From: Gaeumannomyces sp. JS-464
Lineage: Eukaryota > Ascomycota > Sordariomycetes > Magnaporthales > Magnaporthaceae
NCBI GenBank assembly: GCA_002197995.1
Contig: NGZR01000004.1
Coordinates: forward strand, 3,224,001-3,288,000
DNA: 64,000 nt
Direction: 5' to 3'
Positions 11,389-64,000 of the stretch are shown here, piece by piece. Each line of letters starts with the position of its first letter. The first letter of the stretch is position 1. The translations under genes were made by a program, and so were the position numbers. A model generated the notes under the pieces. The model did not search any database, was not told the origin of the DNA, and was given only the letters and a program-made list of their open reading frames with translations.

Positions 11389-11459
11389 GAACTTGTAGTA
11401 TAACGGGTACCGCTTTTGCAATTTTGCAAAGGTTGTAAGTTCGATTCCTGCCGGGTGCA
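11389..11459 (+). ncRNA. tRNA-like unit a (71 nt)
   Basis: Acceptor strands gaacttg / cgggtgc pair at 6 of 7 positions counting G-T; discriminator A. The A-box-like TAGTATAACGG fits TRGYNNARNNG. The T loop is TTCGATT, within the B-box-like AGTTCGATTCC. The same unit occurs at 61382-61452, where the T stem is perfect (gtaag/tttac) and the D stem atgc/gcac is consistent with GTGC/GCAC. The anticodon arm gives a 5-bp stem with an 8-nt loop, so identity cannot be assigned. It is tRNA-derived or tRNA-like and probably inactive now. Confidence 0.55.
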
Positions 11460-11465
11460 TTTACT

Positions 11466-11518
11466 CGGATCCGCTTATCGTCCTCGGCGGCGAGTAAGTC
11501 CGTATAAAGCTTTTTTTT
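11466..11518 (+). ncRNA. Hairpin a followed by T8
   Basis: The arms 11466-11480 and 11488-11502 pair at 12 of 15 positions. The three failures are all C-A, as RIP would leave from C-G. An oligo-T run of 8 at 11511-11518 follows, as a Pol III terminator would. The homologous hairpin at 61459-61495 pairs at all 15 positions. Confidence 0.5.
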
Positions 11519-11579
11519 CGCTAACCGTTTGTAATAAACCCTTTTGCTTTATTTGGTTTTAGTAAATGCTGCTTTTTTT

Positions 11580-11651
11580 AACCTAATGGTAAAACGGTAT
11601 TATTTATAGCACCCATTTTGTAAGTCCCGGGTTCGATTTCCGGCTGGGCTA
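11580..11651 (+). ncRNA. tRNA-like unit b (72 nt)
   Basis: Acceptor strands aacctaa / ctgggct pair except at two A-C positions that a G-to-A change would create. The A-box-like TGGTAAAACGG and B-box-like GGTTCGATTTC are both present. The T stem ccggg/tccgg pairs (one G-T), and the D stem gtaa/ttat pairs with one G-T. The anticodon arm is imperfect. This is among the clearest tRNA-like units in the window. Confidence 0.6.
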
Positions 11652-17476: not shown

Positions 17477-17549
17477 TAATCGCATTAAAAGTCGAACTTA
17501 AAACCTCCGGCCAATTAGATAAAATACGCTACCATTGCGCTATACGACG
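17477..17549 (-). ncRNA. tRNA-like unit c (73 nt)
   Basis: On the minus strand, acceptor strands cgtcgta / tgcgatt pair at 6 of 7 positions. The A-box-like TAGCGCAATGG fits TRGYNNARNNG, and the D stem gcgc/gcgt is consistent with GCGC/GCGC. T loop TTCGACT; discriminator A. It is antisense to pol. Close relatives are units d and e. Confidence 0.55.
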
Positions 17550-19961: not shown

Positions 19962-20034
19962 AATTGTATAGCGCAATGGTAACATACTTTACTTAATTAG
20001 CCGGAAGTTTTAGGTTTAACTTTTAATGCGACCG
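19962..20034 (+). ncRNA. tRNA-like unit d (73 nt)
   Basis: Acceptor aattgta / tgcgacc: two A-C mismatches would be G-C before G-to-A change, and the rest pair. The A-box-like TAGCGCAATGG matches exactly. T stem ttagg/tttaa pairs with G-T, and the T loop is TTTAACT (TTCAACT before C-to-T). Same type as units c and e. Confidence 0.55.
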
Positions 20035-23791: not shown

Positions 23792-23864
23792 GGTTGTATA
23801 ACGCAATAGTAACGTGTTTTACCTAACTGGCCGGAAATTTTAAGTTTAACTTTTAATGCAACTA
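23792..23864 (+). ncRNA. tRNA-like unit e (73 nt)
   Basis: Acceptor ggttgta / tgcaact pairs at all seven positions (with G-T); discriminator A. A-box relic TAACGCAATAG; T loop TTTAACT. It keeps acceptor pairing despite sequence changes relative to units c and d. Confidence 0.55.
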
Positions 23865-26620: not shown

Positions 26621-28030
26621 CCGTTTTTAGGTTTTTCCTAAATAACTTTTCGTATTTGTAATATTTCTCCGGAATATTCGCGAGCCGTTTTTTAATATTA
26701 ATTTAGTCGTTTTAATCGCTTTCCATTTTAAATAATCGTATATTTGTTAATGCTAAATATAAAAGCAAATTATTAAGTTTTATTACTGTTATAACCTTTT
26801 TTCGTTATTTTTTATACTTACGGTTTAAAATTCGTAATTGATAAACCGTTTTAATTATTCGTAATTTCCTTTATTAAACTTAACCGGTGGTTTAATTATT
26901 CGTAAATTGTTTTTTTTTAACTAAAGGATTCCGAAAATCACATTTCTTTTTTTATGTCCAATTTGTTTAATATAATAATAACGTTTTCCTTATCCCGGGT
27001 ACGCAACATTACTAGCTATATTTTTTAATTAATCCATTTTTTATTATAAGCGATAGGTATTTTTTTAACCGTTTTTAGTTAATACGGTTGGTATTTCCGT
27101 TTTAAAGGAATTTTATACCGTTTAACCGCTTATAATGATATATAATCGCTTTATATTTCGCAATCGATTATTATTTTATTCGAAATGTTAATAAATCGTA
27201 CGGTTAATTCGATTTTGCTATAGCGAAGGTTTTTATCGGTTTTTTTTTTTATTTTATTCCGTGCTTTTTGCTCCGGTAGTTTAGCTAGTTTTTTAGTAAA
27301 AAAACGAGTACCGTACGTTCGTTTTTTTATCCGGGTTAAACGGTACGTACGCTCGCGTAACTCCCTAATACTAAGCTTTCGCTTTTTATAATATATGCTT
27401 TTTGCATTTCACAGTTTCGCATTTTCTTTAATTAAGTATTTTGGTAATATATAGTATTAAATGCCGTTCGTTAAGCTTAAAAACTGCGGTAAATTTACCT
27501 ATTCGGGCTAATTCCTACCGTAGCAATTAAAATGCCAAACGGGGCTTAACGTTTGGCTCGCTTTCCAACTTTCGTGGAAAAAAATCGTATTTAAATTTGG
27601 GTTATAAATGGAATTTGCACTTTCCGTAAATGCATTTTGCCTAAAAAAGGTACAAATATCCCGGGTGTTTTATATTAATGCTAAAATGGTTTTCGGGTTT
27701 TAACGCAGCCCTGTTTAGCTCGCTTATATCGTCGAACTAGTAGCTAATATACCTAACTTTTTATTAATCGTTAAACTACGATAAAGGTTAGCCGTTATTT
27801 CCGTTTACCGGGGTGGCATAGCATAATAGGCCATTTAGGTATTTTAAAACCTTAACGTTTTAAAAACATTTCGAAACGTTAAAAAGCGTAAAAACGCGTT
27901 AATTTTTTCAATTTGCCTGGCTTTTACAAACCATTAGTATAACGGTTACGCTATTTAAATTCTTAGCTCGTTTTTAAAATTCGGCTATTTTAAAGGTTTA
28001 TCCGTTTTAGTTTATTTCGGCGTCGGTATT
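26621..28030 (-). pseudogene. Protease and Cys-rich region of nested Gypsy
   Basis: The minus strand lies between RT and gag. Cys-containing knuckle-like coding occurs at about 27600-27665. The protease should lie at about 26900-27450 by position, but no DSG/DTG motif was read with confidence. Confidence 0.5.
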
Positions 28031-46149: not shown

Positions 46150-47210
46150 TCCTCGTTTATATGCTTAGTTCGCTACCGTTACCGTTTTAATACGGGCTAA
46201 TATTATGGCATATTTGTAAAAGGTCCGGGCCGGCCATACGTATATGGATTTAATTTTTGCGTTTCGGTTTTCGGCGTTTAAACTTTTAATAAATGCGTTT
46301 AAGTTTTTTAAAAATATTTCCTATTTAAAACTTTAAATTACCACGTTATATATCCGCATTCGGATCGTTACTTAGTCGCCGAATACTTTTTTTACTTAGT
46401 CGTTTTTTTTTATATTTTTTTGCGTTTATTTAAAAGCATATTATTACGTTTCCGCTCCGGAGTTGTTTCGTTACCCGTATTATCGTATTTAATTGGTTAT
46501 TTAACGCTTATAAAATGTTTATTATTAATCGCTTTTTAATTGCTTTTAAGGGTTTTCTTATATTTACGACAATTTTTCGTTCGATTTTTAACGGTATAAA
46601 TCGGGGTGGGGGTTGCGCCGTATTCGGGTATTATTAGCGTGGTTAAATTAACTCGGTTCCGCCCGGCATTCGGGCCGGTAAGCTTATAGCTAATGCAATG
46701 GCATAAAACTTTTGGTATTAGCTAATGCTTTTTTAATTTCCTCGAATATTTTTGCTTTAAGCTTTTACAACGTGTCGTTAGTTATTAGTTTTTTTGCGGC
46801 GGTTTCGCGTTAGCGAGCCGCTTTCGCGTCGATCCTTCGCTTCGTTAGCTCCGATACCAGTTGCAAAATTTCCAGCAACTTTCCATTAATTACAAAAGGC
46901 TTTAGCTTATCGATAATCTTTTTTTTTTTTTTTTTAGCGGCTGCGCGCCGGTTTTATATCGGTATCGCTGCTTTCCCGCGTGTTCGAAAACGCGTTAGGA
47001 GGATCCACCGTCGTGGCGTGCCGACTGGCCGCGAGCTTAAAATCGATCGCCATCGATTTTTAGCCCGTGCCGTTGGCGCGCGCACGATGCGGCATCGATC
47101 CGGGGTCGAGTCGGCTGCGAGGGGTTCGATTTTGGCGTTAAAATTGGATTATTTGGAAGGGCTAACCGGCTACGCGTTTTTAAAGTCGCAGCAGCTTTTT
47201 TTTACGATTA
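46150..47210 (-). pseudogene. LINE ORF1 (gag-like)
   Basis: The minus strand has a basic, Arg/Ala-rich N-terminal part (about 46930-47130). A Lys-rich stretch and KLTGPNAGRN, PEYGATPTPIYTVKNRTK follow (about 46560-46720), in keeping with Tad1 ORF1 layout. The G+C island at 46970-47120 is less affected by RIP. The plus-strand open stretch 47018-47245 is its complement. Confidence 0.5.
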
Positions 47211-49265: not shown

Positions 49266-50451
49266 AGTAAATAAATAGCAATGGTTTACCAATAAAACGA
49301 AAAAACGAAAAACCTATGCTTAAAACCCAGTTTTAATTAAACGGCATATTATAACGATTTATATGGAATATACCGATCCGATAAAAACGGATTAGGGTAA
49401 TACTTTTAACCGAAGGTCGCCGTATAATACAACGAACTTTTCGCAAAAATGGATGTTTAACAAGCATTTATTTAAGTAAAAATCCAAAACGTGGAATAAA
49501 ATTAATACAAATATTTTAAAAAATTAAAACTTATTAAACCTACGGAAAAAAAAAGTTGCTTACACTTTTTAAAATTCCATAAAGGTTTAAAAAAACGCCG
49601 AAAAACAAAAAACTATAGCGCTAAATAAAATGGTTTATAAAAAGCTACGAAATTAATAAACCTTTAAAATACGATTAATAAAACACGTTAAATTTGCCAT
49701 TATTTAAAAAAAACCAAAAACTGCTAAAACAGTTACATTTAATACGCCGAATGTTAGCTAGTTAAATTAGTTCACAAACGTTTAACAAATTACGTATTAC
49801 AAAGTAATACGGGAAATAACACAAAAAAAATGGACGAAAAAAAGCTTAACAATTTTATAGCAAAAAACTACGAAAACATAACCCTAATAAGGAACGGTTT
49901 AAATAGCTTTTTTAAGCAAAATGGTTTTTATAATAATTGCTTTTCGCATTTAAAAAAATAGGTAAAATACGATTATTTTTATAAAAATAACCCAAAAATT
50001 AACCACGCGCGGAATTACAAAAATGGGATTAACCTTTACGGTAAAAAATTAACGCGCGCAATTATAAATAAAAGTTTGAAATTTTTAAACCTTAGGTTTT
50101 TCCCCCGATAATTTGCGTTACCGCAAAGCTCGAATAGCATAAATGCTTAAAAGAAAAATGCAAAATTTACGTGTATTAAAAAGCTAAAAGCTTAAATAAA
50201 CGGACAAATTCGGAACGTATAACGAAAATACGGTATAAAAAACGGATGGATTTTTAAAACCTTGGGTTAAAAAACTAAACTAACCACCAGCGAAAAAGGC
50301 ACGAAATAAGATATTACCGTAAAAAACCTTAGCAAAAACTAATATAACAAAAATCGAAAGCTAGCATTTAGTATTATCGATAAGGATTAACGAACGACTA
50401 ATACCCGTTATAATCGATAATAAAGCATTAAGGAAATTTCATTTTACTAAC
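49266..50451 (+). pseudogene. Post-gag region, second Gypsy subfamily (protease expected)
   Basis: Coding-like plus-strand sequence with RIP stops, homologous to 37460-37960 (minus) in its first half. No catalytic motif could be read. It is cut at 50452 by another element's LTR, so RT and integrase are absent. Confidence 0.45.
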
Positions 50452-54419: not shown

Positions 54420-56276
54420 ACGTAATTTACAAATAAGTGGCGCATATAAACGAATACAGCGTTTTTTATCGCGACTCGCGTTTCCCACTTCCAACGTAAA
54501 TTTTTTAATAACCAGAAATAGCGTTAATTTAACAAAGCTAAAATTGTTTTTGCTATACGGGCAATTAAATTTAATTTAACGTTAAATATGCGTTTGGTAG
54601 CTAAAATTTATAACGTTTTTAAAACCACGTTACTTCGCCGACGCGCCGGTTAATTTATTTAACGCGATAGCATAGCTAAATTACGAAAATTAACGGAATC
54701 CGAAAACTAAACGTTTATTAAATGGATATTTAAATTGAATTTTTGCGCATTTTTTCCTTAACTTTTTAATGTTAACAATATAGCTAACCGATTATTTGCC
54801 AAACGTAACGCGGTATTATAAGTAAAAACTAAGTTGCGAGTTTCGTTAAGCGCCGCGTAAAGTTCGGCACGCGTTAATATTCGAAAATACGGTTATTAAA
54901 AAGCCAAATGCGAAAATTTTGAGCTCGTTTTTGCATAATTTAATTTTATACGGAATATTATAAACAAATATAATATTTTAAATAACGATATTTATAATTT
55001 CGACGAAACCGGCTTTTTTATAGGCATAATCGCCGCTATTATAGTTATTATACATCGAAAAGCCGTAATAAATGAAACTAATCCAGTTTAGCAATTGAAA
55101 ATGGGTTATAATTATTTAAAAAATTAACTGTTACGGTTAAACGATCCTTTTTATTATTATCGTTAAAAGGCAGTACCATTTAGCCAATTAGTATTCGAAA
55201 ACCGACTTTCCACGCGATTAAATTATTATAACGAATTTTAACGAGTGCATTACGAACGAGCTTAGCTTAAAATGGATCCAGCATTTCGATAAATACATTA
55301 TATTGTGTACGAAAAGCACCCATCGTTTGTTAATGCTAAACAGTTATAAAAGCCACCATTTAACGGATTTCGAGCTTTATTATTAAAAATATAACATTAT
55401 TCGCTTTATATATTTTCGTATTTATATTACTTTTTTTAACCGTTTTATATTAAATGCTATAACCTGTTAAAAAAAAAGCGTACGGTCGATAAATCGAAAA
55501 TTTAATAAAATTACACGTTAACTACGTAATTAAAATCGAATTCTTTTTAACGTTTAAAACGGCATTTTTTAATTTTATAACCGAAAAAAACATTTAAAAA
55601 GGCTTTCGAAAAGCTAGCTTTGCTCCTTTTAATCCGGATTTGGTTTTAAAAAAGCTGGATGTAAAGCTACGAACTTTAACTCCATCGAGGACGCTATTAA
55701 ACAACCTCGAATTTTGGACTTTTAAAACGCCGCGAATAGCTAAAAAAGCAATTTCGCAATCCGAACATATTAAAACTCGGATTTCCAATTACCGGAGCAG
55801 CTTTTCGATACTTATGCTGGCAATTGTAAACCAGCTTACGAAAAGGACAAATTCGATTATATATTAAATGGCCTTTTTTAAAGCTAAAATTGCTTCGCTA
55901 CGCAAAGCAAACGAAATATTAAGCAAACGCCGAAAGGTTAAAAAAAACACGTGTTCGATTTAAAAGGTTATTTATTATCGAAAAGGTACGAAATGTTTTA
56001 AACTAAAAGGATTTAAATGGATAGCTATAGCAAAAAATGCACGATTATAAGTGTTAAAAAAAAGGCCGACGATAACTCGTCGGCGATATAGCACTTGCGG
56101 CAAAATAGGATATAATGCGCGTATTTGTTACAAAAAAGTAGAAATGTTTAATGTATACAGTTCCGAGTAGTTTAAATGGATTTTTAGCGTTGTTAGGTTA
56201 GTATGCGTGTTAATTAACCGGAGGTTAAAATTAGTGTTCGATTTGGTAATATGTCCGATTTGGTAATAAATTACGT
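54420..56276 (+). mobile_element. pogo/Fot-type DNA transposon, copy 2 (1857 bp)
   Basis: Ends ACGTAATTTACAAATAAGTG (left) and the reverse complement of ...GGTAATAAATTACGT (right) with TA duplicated at 54418-54419 and 56277-56278. Same internal order as copy 1 in opposite orientation. Confidence 0.82.
54560..56090 (+). pseudogene. pogo transposase copy 2
   Basis: N-terminal HTH/CENP-B-like part (54570-54900). The DDE core starts NFDETGFFIG (about 54995), with FDETGF containing the first catalytic Asp, then LEWI.HFD-type and PLKKAYG-type regions. KLDVKLRTLTPSRT (from 55655) to about 55865 is the usual C-terminal region of fungal pogo transposases. The basic tail and final CRQNRI-like Cys part end at about 56110. 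RIP stops make it inactive. Confidence 0.82.
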
Positions 56277-57299: not shown

Positions 57300-59760
57300 T
57301 AATTTTGTTATCCGAATCGCTATTTTCGCTGAAAGATTTTTCTATTTTTGAAATTCTTTTTGTAAAACCGATAAATCGGTTATATTTCAACTTTTTAATA
57401 GTAATATTTTACGGCTAGTTTTCGATTTTAATTTATTACGGCTAAGGGTTATAATATTAGTAGCTGTAAAAATAAACTTTTTACAGCAGCCGAAGTAGCT
57501 GGAATCGATAAGTATGTTTTAGCCAAAATACTTAATATTGGAAATCGCTTTTTATTATTTTTCCAATATAATAAAATATTTTCATTCCCGTCGCATATGT
57601 TTTTATTTAAATATTAAATATTTTTTATCTTTTTGCTTGTTTTTCCCTTTAAATAATTCGGAATCCGAATCGCTATTATTAATTTTATTACTTTTATCGT
57701 AAAAACTAGTATTTAATTCGTTAAACGAATCAGTTATATTGGAATTTGGATATAATTTATTTTTTAATTTTGTATATTCGTATTTTATAAAGGCTTTAGC
57801 ATCGTTTTCCATATTTGGATAAAAATAAAGTAATTTATCGATTTCGAAATGCGATAATTTATGTCGAGGATTTAAAATTATTAATAATAAATAAGGTTAA
57901 TACTTTTTAAATATATTAAAAGTTGGATTTTTAGGGAAATATTTATCCAGCTTTTTTATCCCGGATTCGATGGCAATTATATAAGCGTTATAATAATTAT
58001 TATTTATGCGATTTAATCGGGTTTTATTGTTAAACCCCGATATTAAATTCTGTAATTTTTTATAAATACGATATATATATATATAAAAACGGTATATTTA
58101 ACGTTGTATAAATTTGGCTTTGCAATTTAGCGGTTAGTTTAAGAAATATTCCGAAAATCGGAATTAAATTATTTATAATTTGAATTCGCTTTTAGTTAAT
58201 ATCGCTTTTTTATAATCGTTATTATCCGTATTTTTTTCCCACGTAAATTAATGGATATTTTAATTTATAAACCGGTTTTAACATTAAAAACGTCGAATTC
58301 CAACGGGTATTATTATTTATTAGAATTTTCGTTAATTTAAAATCTTTTCCAATTTATTTTCATTTTTATATTTATTAATCCCTCCCGTTAAAACCTTTTT
58401 AGGTTCGTTATTATATTTTAAAATCGTTACAATTTTACGAATTTTAACTGTTATAGTATTATTTTCATTATTATCGGTATTATTTAAAAAATCCCGTAAA
58501 ATATCCTTTGCAACCAAATTTAATATATGAGCTGTATAACGAATATTAAAAATTACCCATAACATTTTTATTATAATAACTAATAAAAGTATCGTTATTA
58601 CTAGCGTTATTACGGGTAATTAATAAAATATTATCGCTATTAATAAAAGGATATTTTTTAATTATATTATTAAATTCCAAATATAAATTTTCACCCGTAT
58701 GGGTTATATTACCAATTTTTTTTAAATCGAATTAATTTATAATTTATTTTAAAATCGGAATTAATATATAGTAATATAGTCCAAAATATTAATTTCCAGT
58801 AATTTTAAAAGTTTAAATATCGAAAGTTATATTAAATTTACCGTTATTTTCAATATGTAATCGCATTTTTTTAATAAATAACGAAAGGTATTCGTTATAC
58901 GTATCATTTAATATAACTTTTAATTTTTTCCTATTAATTATAGGAGATATTTTATTATAATAATTTAATAAATCGGTAAATGATTCCGATTTTACTATAT
59001 TAAACGATAGGTTATTATCAATAATAAACCATAATATTTTTTTATATGCATTAATATTATTAAAATTTGTTAAAATTGTATTTTGCCGTTATCGTTTACG
59101 ATTATCCGTTAATTTATTAGATAAAAAGAACGATATTATCGGTAATTAGGCCGTATTTTGTTTTTTTGCCTTGTTTTTTCACTAACCGTATTATATGCAA
59201 TATTAGGGTGTTTAAATTTATAATGCCGTGCGTAATTCGATGATTAAAAACTATTAATTTTTTCGATATTTTTATATTTGCATACAGTGGATTGTATAAC
59301 GAATACGTTCTTTATTAATATTTATTAGTAAAAGCGTTCGTATAAATAAATAATTTTGAAAAATATAGCTTATTTCATTTTTATTAAACGGTAAAGTATA
59401 ATTTGGTTAATTATACGGCGAGTTCTTATAATTTTATTCGTTATTCGAATTATTATTTAAATTACTATTATCGGAATTATTACCCGAATCGGAATTTAAT
59501 TCGTTTAAATAAACTAAATTGGAAATATTAGTTAATTCGGTAATTTGGCTAATATTATCGAAAAAAACATTTTTATATTTTTTTAATGTTTTTTTTTGTA
59601 AAAATTTGTGAAAAGTAGGTCGGGTTAATAGGTAAAATACTAATAATAGGGTTTGTAATAGTGGTGCAGGATATATCGTTATATTATGCTTTATTTTTTT
59701 AGTTTACTATAAAAGTTAGATATTTTAATAGGGTATTCGCTAATTTATACCCGTTTAAGC
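57300..59760 (-). mobile_element. hAT-type DNA transposon remnant
   Basis: Minus-strand hAT transposase in order from high to low coordinates. A BED-finger-side region lies at about 59160-59250. The DDE/RNase H-like region follows (LWFIIDNNLSFNIV, about 59000-59040), then RYTAHILNLVAKDILRDF (58500-58540), the NRIRCxAHxLNL block of the family. The dimerisation motif YLSIPATSAAVKSLF is at 57460-57510. Long frames survive (57603-57812, 58332-58565). Terminal inverted repeats and the 8-bp duplication were not resolved. Confidence 0.8.
57440..59250 (-). pseudogene. hAT transposase
   Basis: Fewer stops than the Gypsy remnants, and a codon composition dominated by Asn, Lys and Ile, so A+T-rich but less RIP-like. 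KMRLHIENNGKFNITFDI (about 58800-58880) precedes the catalytic region, and RNNASNNDTFI (about 58580-58615) matches the G.DNASNN.T block. The C-terminal part is intact from 57812 to 57603, then reaches the IPATSA motif. Frame breaks make it a pseudogene. Confidence 0.8.
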
Positions 59761-60058
59761 TATTCCAAGGCTTTCCACGGTATTTGGTGGATTTGTAAGC
59801 TTATACCTTTTATTATGGTTAAAGTTATTTATTTGGAATATTAAGTTTATTAAATTTATAACTTATGGAAAGAAATTAAAAACCATGGAATTTTATATTA
59901 GTAATATAATTCCAAAAGGTTCCGTGGTATGCCTGCTTACGTAAGCATATATCATTTTAATCCTATAATTAAGGCTTTAATATGCTGGTATCCGTTTGCT
60001 CATAGCCCTTATGGTTATAAAGTTATTAATTATTTTATATGTTATTTTTATATTTCCA
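59761..60058. other. Low-CpG A+T-rich spacer
   Basis: About 300 bp with few CpG and several TG/CA, unlike the adjoining RIP-marked DNA. No coding frame or relation to the other repeats was seen. It may belong to the hAT terminus or be older unique DNA. Confidence 0.4.
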
Positions 60059-60514
60059 TATTATAACCGGGGTTTTACTCCCAGGGTAAGGCACCTAAGG
60101 AAAAGGTTAAAACTATGCATTTGTCGATAACTTTAAAAAAACTCGGGGTTTTAAAGTGCAGCGCTTTAATTGCTTGCTTTAAGGGATACCTAAAAGCTAA
60201 TTTAGATTAACTAATGCCGAGGCTTTAGTTAAAGCTATTTGGGATAATAGGAAACCCATCCTTTATATATACGCTTCCTGCTTTTACGAACGTTTAAATT
60301 TGTGGCTTTATTTAAAAATCCAAAAATCCCTTCCGATTTATGGCTTTGTTTAAAGATTTAAAATCCTTTTGGATTTGTGGCTTTGTTTAAAATCCAAAAA
60401 TCCAGCTTAAGTAAACCTATTACGTGCTTTCGTATCTTTTAGTAATGCGGGGTAAAACCGCCATCTGGAGCCCTTTTTATCCTATATTCTAAGGTTTGCA
60501 TATTGGTCGTAATA
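60059..60514 (-). repeat. 3' LTR, main-family Gypsy at right edge
   Basis: Plus-strand ends TATTATAACCGGGG and ATTGGTCGTAATA. Three AAATCC-type units at 60285-60405. Followed by the reversed polypurine tract at 60515. Confidence 0.87.
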
Positions 60515-60631: not shown

Positions 60632-61193
60632 ATGTTTAATCGGGTGTAAAAACGCCTTTTCGCGAAAAGAACTTTTAACGTAAAAACCTGCTTATTTAAG
60701 TTATTTTTTTGTACCGTCGAAATGCCTTTTTGCTTTTTTTATTACGAGGTTCTTAAGCGTAAAAAATGTAAAGCTTTTCCTTAGGACTCGTTTCGGTACG
60801 TAAAATGCTTTGGTCGAAACCGTTTAAACTGCGACATTTTCAACCTTTCTTTTAAATAACTTCGTTTTATCGGCTTTTAATATTAGCAAATAAAAATTAA
60901 AATTAAAACGGTGGAAAAAAAACGTCGTATTTTGGATAATAAGCTTAAACGTTTGCGGAAATAAAAAAAAATATCGTTTAAAAGAAAAATGCCTGCGATT
61001 CGTCGAAATATTAACGCCGTAAAGGAATTAAAGCGTATCGAGCGGAAAGAGGCCGGCCGGGAAGCTCGTTAAATTACCTCGCAATCCGAGCCGTTCGTAA
61101 CTTTTACCGTTTCCTTCGATTGGCAAACATTTGAAGTTAATCCTAATTTAAACTTGTTTGCTTTTTTTAATTCGGGTAAAAGCTATTTTTGCT
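60632..61193 (+). pseudogene. Antisense Cys-cluster ORF, best-preserved copy
   Basis: Starts MFNRV. KTCLFKLFFCTVEMPFCFFY and YYEVLKRKKCKAFP (60690-60780), then RYVKCFGRNRLNCDI (60795-60840), give a Cys cluster (C...KC...KC...CD). A basic helical segment follows (KIKTVEKKRRILDNKLKRLRK, 60900-60960, then AVKELKRIERKEAGREAR, 61020-61070). The tail is FDWQTFEVNPNLNLFAFFN (61115-61170). The Cys spacing recalls fungal TE-associated hypothetical proteins. A nucleic-acid-binding role is inferred. Fewer stops than the sister copies. Confidence 0.65.
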
Positions 61194-61209
61194 AACCGTT
61201 TTAAAAAAA

Positions 61210-61281
61210 ACCCGTAATATACTAAGTACTACTTTACCTTTTTTGGCCAAAATCGCAAGTTCGACTTTTATCGGGTTTATT
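61210..61281 (+). ncRNA. tRNA-like unit f (72 nt)
   Basis: Acceptor aaacccg / cgggttt pairs perfectly; discriminator A. D stem ATAT/GTAC pairs after two RIP reversals (GTAC/GTAC). T stem gcaag/tttat pairs except one C-A. T loop TTCGACT. Confidence 0.6.
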
Positions 61282-61287
61282 TATCGG

Positions 61288-61334
61288 CTAGCAGTTGGTT
61301 TAACCGCTGCTAGTTAATAAAATTCTTTTTTTTT
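61288..61334 (+). ncRNA. Hairpin f followed by T9
   Basis: CTAGCAG (61290-61296) pairs with CTGCTAG (61309-61315), extended by G-T pairs. A T9 run lies at 61326-61334. It sits directly after tRNA-like unit f. Confidence 0.5.
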
Positions 61335-61381
61335 GCTAATCCGGCTGGTAAATGCGCCTTTTTTTATTAACCTGTTTTTTC

Positions 61382-61452
61382 GAACCCGTAATGCAACGGG
61401 CACCGCTTTTGCAATCCTACGAAAATCGTAAGTTTAATTTTTACCGGGTGCA
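61382..61452 (+). ncRNA. tRNA-like unit g (71 nt)
   Basis: Homologue of unit a. Acceptor gaacccg / cgggtgc 6 of 7; T stem gtaag/tttac 5 of 5; D stem (A/G)TGC/GCAC; discriminator A. The 5-bp anticodon-position stem has an 8-nt loop, as in unit a. Confidence 0.6.
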
Positions 61453-61458
61453 TTTATG

Positions 61459-61495
61459 CGGATTTGCTCGTCGTTTTTAACGGCGAGTAAATCCG
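61459..61495 (+). ncRNA. Hairpin g (15 bp)
   Basis: CGGATTTGCTCGTCG and CGGCGAGTAAATCCG pair at all 15 positions (two G-T) around TTTTTAA. Homologous to hairpin a. A T14 run lies further downstream at about 61542-61555. Confidence 0.6.
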
Positions 61496-61581
61496 TATAA
61501 AGCTTCCTTTTACCGTTTTATTGCTAACCGTTAATTACAATTTTTTTTTTTTTTGGCTTTAATAAATGCACTTTTTTTTAT

Positions 61582-61654
61582 AATTTAATGGTATAATAGT
61601 AACATTTTTTACCTTTTTAACTGGAAATCCCAAATTTAACCTTTAGTTAAGTTA
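61582..61654 (+). ncRNA. tRNA-like unit h (73 nt)
   Basis: Acceptor aatttaa / ttaagtt pairs fully (one G-T); discriminator A. The A-box-like TGGTATAATAG fits TRGYNNARNNG. D stem GTAT/ACAT is restored by two RIP reversals. Homologue of unit b by position. Confidence 0.6.
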
Positions 61655-61664
61655 AAACCTTTTT

Positions 61665-61710
61665 AGTTAAAGCTTTTTAATATCGACGGCGGTATTAAAA
61701 AGTTTTAACT
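61665..61710 (+). ncRNA. Hairpin h (18 bp)
   Basis: The arms 61665-61682 and 61693-61710 pair at all 18 positions (one G-T) around TCGACGGCGG. The position is equivalent to hairpin b, but the stem sequence differs. Confidence 0.6.
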
Positions 61711-61719
61711 AATTTGGTT

Positions 61720-62960
61720 CGTTATTTTTACTTAGCTAACCTTTTCGTAAGCGCTTTTACCGATATTTTTGTAAAACGTTTTGGCAATTTTTAAAGTTGG
61801 TTTTTTTTACGTGTTTTTTTCATTACCGTACCTTTTCCATTTAACTAAATATTATTTAGTTCGGTATTTAATCCTTTCGTTAAAAATTTTTTAACTTTAT
61901 ATTTGTAATTTAATTTACTTCGATTAATTCGTTCGTTTTAAATTATAGTAATGCTAATTCGAATCGGGAAATATAAAAACCTAAATGTATTTTTATAAAT
62001 TATAATAATTAAAACTCGTAATTAATTGCTAAAACTTTTTTTATAACTTTAAAAAGTCCCAATTTCGTATAATTTAATTTGTCGTTTAGTTGTTTTATTT
62101 TAATATTAAACTGCTTTTCGTTAGCAACTCGTTTTCGAAATAAACGCTATTTACTTAGTTAATTTATTTATAATTAACGAAATATCGTAAATATTATTCC
62201 AATGTTTAATTCGTTCGTTCGGTTTAACCATCCTTTTAAATTTGTAAACCATTAATAATAAAAACTCGGTTTTTAATTTAGCCGTTAAACCTTTTTAAAT
62301 TTTACTAATAAATAATTTAATTCGATTTATAACGATACTTTCTTGCATTTTGTAATTAACTACCATATGTTTTTAAAAATATGTAAATTAGGTTTAATAT
62401 ATTATTGCTTTTTTACTAGGGTCGGAAATACGCGTATTAGTAAAATCGGTTTACAAATACTAATATACTATTATACCGCATTTTGTTAAAAGTTTTTTAA
62501 ATTTTGGTAATTTAACGATAAAATTTATAATAATTATTTACCACGCTTCGTTAGGCGCCGGTAACGGTTATAGCAATTTATAAGGGTTATACTTATTATT
62601 TTTAATTTTTACATAAATTTCGCAATCCTTTATTACGGTTTATACTTTATTTTAGTTTTTATAAACCCGTAATGCTATTAAAGGTTTTTTTATATTTTAA
62701 TTATTTTTTGGTAACCGTATATTACCTAATTGAAAACCTTTTAAATCCTTTTTAATATTTAAAATTCGTTTATTATTGCGATTATTAACCGTTGGTATAT
62801 TAACATTAGCTTACCGTTTATTTTTTAAGTTAAAATGGTACGTATTTTTTTTAATATTTCGACTTTATAATCCGTTCGTCGGTTAAAAGCGTTTGCTCGC
62901 CCGATTTCCGACCTTTTTTAATATACAATTTTAAAATGAAATTCGTTAAAAAAATTCGCT
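61720..62960 (-). pseudogene. Integrase of right-edge Gypsy
   Basis: Minus-strand integrase, homologous to 23910-25420: HHCC side at about 62620-62720, C-terminal part near 61720-62100. RIP stops. Confidence 0.7.
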
Positions 62961-63029
62961 TTATTTAATTTATCGTTTATTTAAATCTCTGCTTTAATAA
63001 AATGTATTAGGTTTTTATAATTTATATAT

Positions 63030-64000
63030 ACCACGATTTTATAGTTTGATTTACGTAAATATATTTTTTATTTTTTAAACGCCCGGATTATCGCTAAAAG
63101 TTTTTTATCGTAAATTTAATAGTTTAACTTTAAACCGTGAAGTTATTACGAAAAAAAAGCATAAAAGTGTAACCTTTTTTGCTCGTTTCGCTAACTTAGC
63201 TATCTTTTAATAGCGTAATCGAAAGCGTCGGTTTTAACCTCGAAAAGTTTATCGGGATTTAGCATTGCTAATATTGGTTTTTACAATATTATATCCCGTA
63301 ATGGTTCGAAAGCTAATTATTCGATTTTAATCTATTTAAATCAGGTATTATTTTTGCTTAAATTGGTAAACGGTATTGCTTTTTTGCTAAAATCCTTAAT
63401 AAATCTTTTATAAAAGTTTAAAAAGTTTAAAAAGCTTTTAACGTTTTAAACGTTTTTTTTAATATTAGCTATTTTCGAACCTTTTATATTTTGGCTAGCT
63501 TTATACTAACTTTTTTTTAATTTAATAACGTATTTTAAAAAGGTAACTTTTTAAATGTACTAAATGCATTTTTTTTAATTCCATTAAAAGTTTCGCTTTT
63601 ATAGCTTTTAAAATATTTTATATATACATTTTCGGTGTTCGGTTTTATTTTTTAAAAAAAATAAAAATATTATCGAAATATATTACGATAAAAATGTCCA
63701 AATATTTTCGTAACGTATGGTTAATTAAGCTTTAGGAAGTGGCCGACGCGTTAATAAAACCAAAAGTTATTATTGGCGATTTAAATACCCCTTTTCGAAT
63801 TCGAAACGCTGTTTTCCACTGGTTTTTTTTAATTTTAACTATTTTATATGCCTTTCGCAAATTTAACGTTATAAATATACGTATTTTGCCGAGCTTATTT
63901 TTAAATTTATCGATTAAAAGCAAAAAATATCGATTTTTTATTATAACGTCGCTTAACGGTTTATAATCGACGCATATACGTTCGTCGTTCCTTCTTTTTA
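63030..64000 (-). pseudogene. RNase H and RT of right-edge Gypsy (partial)
   Basis: On the minus strand, LLIDKFKNKLGKIRIFITLN and AFRIRKGVFKSPIITFGFIN (63740-63920) are RT blocks. The catalytic motif near 63660-63695 reads YFDNIF, second Asp changed to Asn. RNase H lies at about 63050-63250. Cut by the window end. Confidence 0.8.

Follow-up and report, generated by a model that had tools for sequence, protein, structure and literature searches.

Does an LTR (long terminal repeat) retrotransposon of a filamentous fungus carry small-RNA genes of its own? The question is raised by an array of three tRNA-like units, each adjoined by a hairpin, near the end of a 64,000-nt stretch of the Gaeumannomyces sp. 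JS-464 genome (contig NGZR01000004.1; hereafter the window). Judging from domains and layout, the array is carried by a Ty3/gypsy family with a Boty-like organization. Its copies share a cassette anatomy and a fixed place in the element, occur in high copy number, form homologous blocks with recurrent boundaries, and keep their pairing across head types. We propose, tentatively and with somewhat less than even confidence, that the array consists of small-RNA cassettes, i.e. a tRNA-like head joined to a hairpin of 40–60 nt, in a Boty-like gypsy family, which would be expressed by a route of RNA polymerase III (Pol III), RNase Z and Dicer. The parts of the array in the window are the following, where R1 is a model built from 35 heads and z is the folding score relative to shuffled sequences.

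61208-61279, plus strand: tRNA-like head c1, 72 nt; acceptor 7/7, T stem 4/5; R1 68.7 bits
61280-61321, plus strand: hairpin H1, directly abutting head c1; 18 pairs with bulges
61326-61334, plus strand: T9 run, terminator-like, after H1; read from the sequence
61382-61452, plus strand: tRNA-like head c2, 71 nt; acceptor 6/7, T stem 5/5; R1 65.6 bits
61454-61500, plus strand: hairpin H2, 1 nt past head c2; 22 bp; z -6.7
61582-61654, plus strand: tRNA-like head B, 73 nt; acceptor 7/7, T stem 4/5; R1 63.5 bits
61663-61712, plus strand: hairpin H3, 8 nt past head B; 23 bp, loop of 4, inverted repeat I3; z -7.6

All three heads, which belong to the training set of R1, have T8, a discriminator A and a T arm just 5' of the acceptor 3' strand. 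An earlier note, made by reading the letters of the window, had placed the units at 61210, 61382 and 61582, with pairing acceptor ends, discriminator A and a T9 run after one of the hairpins; the positions are reproduced to within 2 nt, the other features are found as described, and the T9 run belongs to the first hairpin. The hairpins of 7, 15 and 18 bp that it listed are all present, at most 8 nt from their heads, but had been measured too short. Folding of each unit together with its hairpin, as the note had called for, yielded z values of -3.2, -6.4 and -5.8 in array order (200 shuffles each), and the 80 nt downstream of head c1, which hold H1, have z -2.6. Among 12786 folding windows of 75 nt on both strands, H2 ranks 2nd, H3 39th and H1 307th, so that H1 alone is unremarkable. 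Very stable folding windows also occur at 47011, 51501, 1271, 29701 and 40581, near H2 in stability or stronger, with no adjoining strong R1 head.

The array is not readily produced by chance. A rule-based head finder (acceptor at least 6/7, T stem at least 4/5, TTYRA T loop, TRR at positions 8–10, D stem at least 3/4) identified three heads in 61205-61735. Among 5000 dinucleotide shuffles of this region a single head arose in 31 and more than one in none, so the proposal of the note that shuffled sequence might give the same density is answered in favour of the array. In the remaining window, on both strands, the finder matched five places, of which three are other arrays and two (49510-49578, minus strand, and 62153-62223, plus strand) look like chance. 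The window is rich in AT, depleted in CA and TG and enriched in CG. In 18 aligned copies of the A-B type (see below) the mean share of T in C-columns is 0.55 and 0.60 where the next base is A or T, and 0.29 and 0.15 where it is C or G, respectively; decay of the copies is thus C-to-T and RIP-like (RIP, repeat-induced point mutation), at CpA and CpT. The decay at CpT is as strong as that at CpA and in this respect wider than classical RIP, which is biased to CpA. For the window array a chance product of RIP is ruled out by the shuffle and folding tests.

Generic tRNA tools miss these heads, yet the observation of three units in the window is confirmed. ARAGORN calls no tRNA gene in the window, and none of the 16 Rfam matches obtained there at E<=10 is to the tRNA model. 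The same scan of 20 loci (59 kb; loci are numbered with the prefix L) produced 18 matches, six of them to the tRNA model and every one of these at an array head: the heads of L006 (37.0 bits) and L009 (31.3) exceed the tRNA cut-off of 29 bits, and heads in L007, L055, L020 and L005 fall under it. The relaxed tRNA scan suggested in the note failed in the window and succeeded in other copies. The loss of pairing in un-RIPed homologues, which it had named as a refutation, is not seen in the best of the less mutated copies of the same genome, where these two heads and the hairpin of L014 (z -7.3) keep or improve the pairing. R1 detected eight strong heads in the window, seven of which had been training heads; since none of the eight was matched by the Rfam tRNA model, the generic model evidently misses RIP-mutated heads, and the Rfam scan of the window is no array-free control. 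Relaxed ARAGORN (-ps80) discriminates poorly: the 34 arrays yield 40 matches, and the window alone yields 41.

The element that carries the array extends past the window end, and its parts within the window are listed here.

61964-63322, minus strand: 3' part of pol, with RNase H at about 63322-62987 and a Tf2-type SH3 domain at about 62098-61964
60059-60514, minus strand: 3' LTR of the element, recognized by its LTR ends
60780-61072 (approximate), plus strand, as the array: decayed antisense open reading frame (ORF), 5' of the array, by alignment from L063:4518-4784

The 5' LTR lies at about 66927-67480 in extended numbering. The LTR termini read TRTTACG...TRTAAYA, and the two LTRs of the element differ by about 100 nt in length and are 78.6% identical over 379 aligned nt. 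As expected for a Boty-like element, a 5-bp target duplication, TTCCA, stands outside both LTRs, next to the 3' LTR at 60054-60058 and again immediately beyond the 5' LTR. The element around the array is thus 7.4 kb long and has retained its two ends. The 3' part of pol in the window matches PF17919 and PF17917 above their Pfam cut-offs, with the SH3 match below its own, and the relative L063 has RNase H, SH3_Tf2-1 (above cut-off) and Chromo, all on the minus strand. The chromodomain typical of the pol end of Boty-like elements is thus found in L063, and the window copy has RNase H and the sub-threshold SH3 only. A search with the SH3/chromodomain piece (125 aa) found 19 homologues at E<=0.001, two of which are named as Colletotrichum orchidophilum. 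The note's phrase 'antisense to Gypsy pol' is correct as to strand, but the array sits just beyond the last conserved domain of pol, between pol and the antisense ORF.

The antisense ORF is open over 105 aa in the copy L054 and over 88 aa in the relative L063. It may correspond to brtn of Boty, whose place between pol and the 3' LTR it shares. A protein search found no homologues of it at E<=0.001, and codon-position transversions upstream of the array give no sign of coding constraint in the 18 A-B copies. The ORFs of L054 (1615-1932, minus strand) and L063 (4518-4784, plus strand) have a CxxC...C stretch and a basic region. On the strand of pol, L054 also has an open frame (79 aa) that crosses the last hairpin and head.

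Copies of the array were searched in the genome of 53.0 Mb (34 contigs). The window array as query gave 44 match rows, among them the match to itself, and some loci are split over more than one row. At 40 examined loci, again with that of the window, both element anchors flanking the array were found at 34, only the upstream anchor at four, only the downstream anchor at one and neither at one; in 74.5 kb, all six anchor pairs enclose heads, with 1–3 units each. With three other arrays as query, at least 40, 43 and 42 match rows were obtained, 40 being scored out of 253, 108 and 183 first-look candidates, respectively, and all 40 matching each time. Each subfamily therefore occupies tens of places, and hundreds are likely. 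R1 at E<=0.01 gave 93 matches from 44 sources. After omission of eight repeats of the same places in L061–L064 and of one L006 match of 25.5 bits, 84 units from 39 sources remained for analysis. Sorting by nearest template assigned these heads to types B (28), A (19), c2 (17), E (9), c1 (8) and F (3), counts that are good to about two because two decayed L013 heads fell to c1 and c2 in another sorting.

The units are combined in different orders, i.e. c1-c2-B (window), c2-E, A-B, or a lone F. Homologous blocks frequently begin at the joint of the T run and GCTAACC (61516, and 11511 in an other-array search), and many stop near the joint of head and hairpin (61655), so that the arrays seem to be built of exchangeable modules, namely heads and hairpins. 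B heads are joined to hairpin H3 in the window, in L002 and weakly in L003, and to another hairpin, H4, in the A-B copies; those in L005, L008 and L018 are followed by unrelated sequence (fold z 0.2, -0.9 and 0.3). As to descent, no head type stands out by resemblance to a host tRNA parent: the best identities by type, 0.58–0.70 against 18 sampled host tRNAs, compare with a host-host mean of 0.63.

Pairing is kept across the copies. The acceptor and T stems were compared in 35 of the 84 heads (420 cells): 83.1% of the cells are paired, against 49.3% and 48.6% when the pairing is slid by one, and the covariation score (0.740) was reached by none of 500 shuffles (0.378, standard deviation 0.024). 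Pair 3-70 occurs as AU, CG, UA or UG and pair 6-67 as AU, UA, CG or UG; these include transversions, changes that lie beyond the reach of C-to-T decay. At 2-71, by contrast with a regular stem, 18 of the 35 heads have no pair. Of the hairpins, H5, which follows the A heads, was compared in all A units but L018 (18 of 19); 93.5% of its cells are paired, and its covariation of 0.303 was reached by no shuffle out of 500 (0.253). H2 is 90.5% paired in 16 copies (L053 was omitted, as was L045, where the head continues into other sequence), and an alignment fold of 18 A-B copies predicts 19 pairs in H4, one of them changed on both sides.

The folding of the flanks points in the same direction. The 80 nt after the 84 heads have a mean z of -2.28 (z<=-3 in 26, z<=-2 in 39), compared with -0.53 for the 80 nt upstream and -0.22 for 84 random places, each with three at z<=-3 and seven at z<=-2. 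By type, z<=-3 is found downstream in 6/28 B, 6/19 A, 7/17 c2, 5/9 E and 2/3 F units. A hairpin 3' of the head is thus a property of the window array and of the set of 84 units as a whole.

Signals for Pol III were sought within the heads. A RIP-tolerant B-box pattern is present in 82 of the 84, which had been found with a model that includes the T loop, and an unmutated B box in 14. The A-box pattern is correctly placed in only 52 of the 84 (0/19 A, 0/8 c1), so that promoter-box tRNA-like heads are recognized by R1, Rfam and B-box counts and less uniformly by the A box. In all 19 A units a T run of 9–26 lies within 110 nt past the head. According to the proposed scheme the tRNA-like head would supply an internal A/B-box promoter, with a T run after the hairpin in many copies as putative terminator. 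A Pol III transcript of head and hairpin, antisense to pol, would lose its head to RNase P and RNase Z, and the released hairpin might enter Dicer as a microRNA-like (milRNA) precursor, as in the case of Neurospora milR-4. In line with such a route, the genome contains matches to the RNAi proteins Dicer and Piwi. Our guess is that the element might benefit by dampening or redirecting RNA interference (RNAi), or by acting on its own convergent transcripts. The more far-reaching claim, that this LTR family encodes antisense, Pol III-driven and RNase Z-processed exchangeable pre-milRNA cassettes against host RNAi or chosen transcripts, as an independent fungal counterpart of the herpesvirus tRNA-miRNA genes, we consider on balance unlikely.

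Several observations weigh against small-RNA cassettes, foremost the position of T runs. Internal runs of at least five T are found in 27/28 B, 14/19 A, 6/8 c1 and 8/17 c2 heads (0/9 E, 0/3 F), compared with 17 of 18 host tRNA genes that have none; at host tRNA loci a run of T>=5 follows within 60 nt downstream in 15 of 20. The first such run past the head starts within 5 nt in 22/28 B and 2/8 c1 units, and after 6–40 nt, mostly within the hairpin, in 8/17 c2, 8/9 E and 3/3 F units, as well as in 4/28 B, 2/19 A and 1/8 c1. In total 50 of the 84 units have it before or inside the hairpin (up to 40 nt), it is more than 40 nt away from the head in only 32, which include 17/19 A units, and two have no run. 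The third window unit is an example, with T5 at 61660-61664, before H3 and reaching into it. Hence T runs in heads, between head B and its hairpin and in several hairpins oppose simple read-through in many present copies. Part of this T-run pattern is a product of C-to-T decay: the internal run of A heads is at most four in 5/19, interrupted by C in four of them, and the B heads of L056 and L057 have a C within theirs. The likeness to tRNA-promoted hairpin transcripts that the note had drawn is good in anatomy, and its interpretation is partly supported.

The comparative evidence has its own weak points. Pairs changed on both sides (11) and further pair types (29) in the heads do not exceed shuffles. 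The covariation draws on no more than about six head types, and relatedness alone can lift it above such shuffles without any structure. In H5 the pair types (16, against 17.3 in shuffles) and the both-side changes are likewise not above shuffles, and the covariation of H2 in its 16 copies is no higher than in shuffles. The A-B copies differ mainly by transitions and give little information on selection. Downstream of the heads, 58 of the 84 stretches do not reach z<=-3, among them all eight c1 units. The anticodon arms of the heads are non-canonical, unlike those in the full cloverleaf of functional tRNA genes, and default ARAGORN calls none of 34 arrays, with 18 of 20 fetched host tRNA loci found, a result by which usable tRNA genes are ruled out. 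Finally, all array copies analysed are from one genome.

Other explanations share part of this evidence. The units could be structural decoys, in which Pol III-made hairpins would occupy Dicer and Argonaute by their shape and not as guides; adenovirus VA RNA is the model for such action. Hairpins that vary in sequence by head type and by B subfamily (H3 versus H4) yet stay hairpins would suit a decoy, and the host has Dicer and Argonaute genes (the Dicer-dimer domain is matched twice, Piwi at five loci). We nevertheless regard decoys as improbable, as hairpin sequence is kept within one subfamily and the sequence after the B heads of L005, L008 and L018 folds no better than shuffles. Lower still is the probability that the heads are B-box boundaries, i.e. 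TFIIIC sites which, placed where the ends of pol and of the antisense ORF converge, block read-through or mark a chromatin border. Each of the six segments in the 74.5 kb has its heads between both anchors, and the prevalence of the B box (82/84) would be explained without any T-run placement for read-through, but a DNA-binding site needs neither covariation of the acceptor stem nor an adjoining hairpin.

The acceptor stem would have a role if the antisense ORF were transcribed by Pol II and the 3' end of this transcript were set by RNase P and RNase Z cutting the tRNA-like folds, for which cleavage of the tRNA-like fold of MALAT1 is the model. The array is indeed located just 3' of this ORF on the same strand, acceptor pairing is kept, and internal T runs would be harmless. 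One fold would be enough, yet up to three are present, and neither the retained B box nor the T run of at least nine within 110 nt after all 19 A heads is accounted for; such a processing signal seems no more probable than a boundary. Similarly low is the probability of hitch-hiking relics, i.e. tRNA-derived inserts like SINEs (short interspersed elements) that were trapped in an ancestral element and copied without function. This would fit heads that are tRNA-like but unusable as tRNAs, with identities to host tRNAs (0.58–0.70) near the host-host value (0.63), and the roughly two-thirds of downstream stretches that have no clear hairpin by z. Pairing kept across types and hairpins beside many heads would then need repeated chance. 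Moreover, at least one element anchor is present at 39 of the 40 examined loci and both at 34, so that no free copies are seen among those 40, and the mobility outside a host element that marks a SINE is not observed there.

For the small-RNA cassettes that we prefer, the nearest known designs by analogy are Neurospora milR-4 and the tRNA-miRNA genes of the mouse herpesvirus MHV68. In the parts of the report that deal with it, milR-4 is described as the Pol III transcript of a tRNA-containing precursor that needs RNase Z and depends partly on Dicer (Yang 2013, PMC3547838). It resembles the present units as a hairpin joined to a tRNA unit in a filamentous fungus, for which Pol III and RNase Z would have to act here as well, but is a host locus between two predicted tRNA-Ala genes, with neither an LTR element nor a tRNA-like array in the account given there. 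The MHV68 genes are likewise several in one genome region but belong to a mouse herpesvirus, for which sections of PMC3482243 report the use of Pol III and RNase Z that is only presumed here. Bovine leukemia virus, as portrayed in portions of PMC3911700, is LTR-bearing and has clustered pre-miRNA hairpins transcribed by Pol III, as the hairpins studied here may be. The cassettes of the fungal element all begin with a tRNA-like head. The bovine leukemia virus hairpins are transcribed directly and are not known to have tRNA heads.

Among mobile elements, Helenus comes closest in concept but differs in promoter location and in size. Helenus and Cassandra TRIMs (terminal-repeat retrotransposons in miniature) are LTR retroelements whose Pol III promoter derives from a tRNA or from 5S sequence; according to the relevant parts of Kojima 2024 (PMC10886601) this promoter is located within the LTR of short non-coding elements, with fungal Helenus reported there from Pucciniales only; the word 'hairpin' is absent from that paper. 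Here the heads are found between pol and the 3' LTR of a 7.4 kb element. Boty, as described in parts of PMC4227169 and PMC7264820, has a gag-pol with a chromodomain and an antisense brtn between pol and the 3' LTR. The present family shares the chromodomain gag-pol and the antisense ORF in this interval with Boty-like elements, for which the corresponding parts of PMC8365987, PMC7264820 and PMC4227169 mention no tRNA-hairpin array. The small RNAs of LTR retrotransposons in Botrytis are a subject of PMC8365987. A literature search of titles and abstract beginnings, mostly without subscription papers, did not bring up any tRNA-hairpin array from an autonomous LTR element. Small RNAs of LTR retrotransposons usually arise from bulk double-stranded RNA. 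If the array is transcribed at all, its gene design is one already known for small RNAs, and the novelty lies in the carrier, the array form and the orientation. Transposable elements would then build dedicated small-RNA genes by the tRNA-plus-hairpin route of herpesvirus and Neurospora. As discrete cassettes with predicted cleavage points, the units make read starts, polymerase and nuclease testable, and they could produce false tRNA or milRNA calls in fungal genomes.

The window holds further copies of array units, of which the first three belong to the R1 training set.

11389-11651, plus strand: array copy (L016) with head c2 at 11389-11459 (R1 71.0 bits) and head E at 11580-11651 (66.9 bits)
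17477-17549, minus strand: single head F with hairpin; R1 59.5 bits, hairpin z -3.4
23792-23864, plus strand: single head F with hairpin; R1 58.0 bits, hairpin z -5.1
19962-20034, plus strand: F-like single head outside the R1 training set; R1 51.7 bits, E 1.5e-9

The 80 nt after the last of these heads fold no better than shuffles (z -1.1). A weak R1 match at 27928-28000 (22.2 bits, E 0.015) lies outside array anchors and has no obvious hairpin downstream, as judged by eye.

A role of the heads as primers of reverse transcription is not supported. The motif TTTTAAYTRATYYTRTTTARTR is shared after the 5' LTR ends (window 5788, 29426, 32773, 38910 and 48241), the usual place of a TGG-type primer-binding site; this motif (TTTTAAYTRAT...) lacks a TGG start, and its longest shared stretch is 9 nt with any head, 7 nt with the sampled host tRNAs and 9 nt with the LTR. 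Near an element carrying the array, L062 has a HET (heterokaryon incompatibility) domain at about 1722-2201 on the plus strand; together with the Dicer and Piwi matches and the homologues named Colletotrichum, it indicates a filamentous ascomycete. Elsewhere in the window, a DDE_1 transposase match below threshold is found at 55102-55401 (plus strand), and a remnant of a hAT dimerisation domain at 57461-57616 (minus strand; PF05699, E 3.9e-11).
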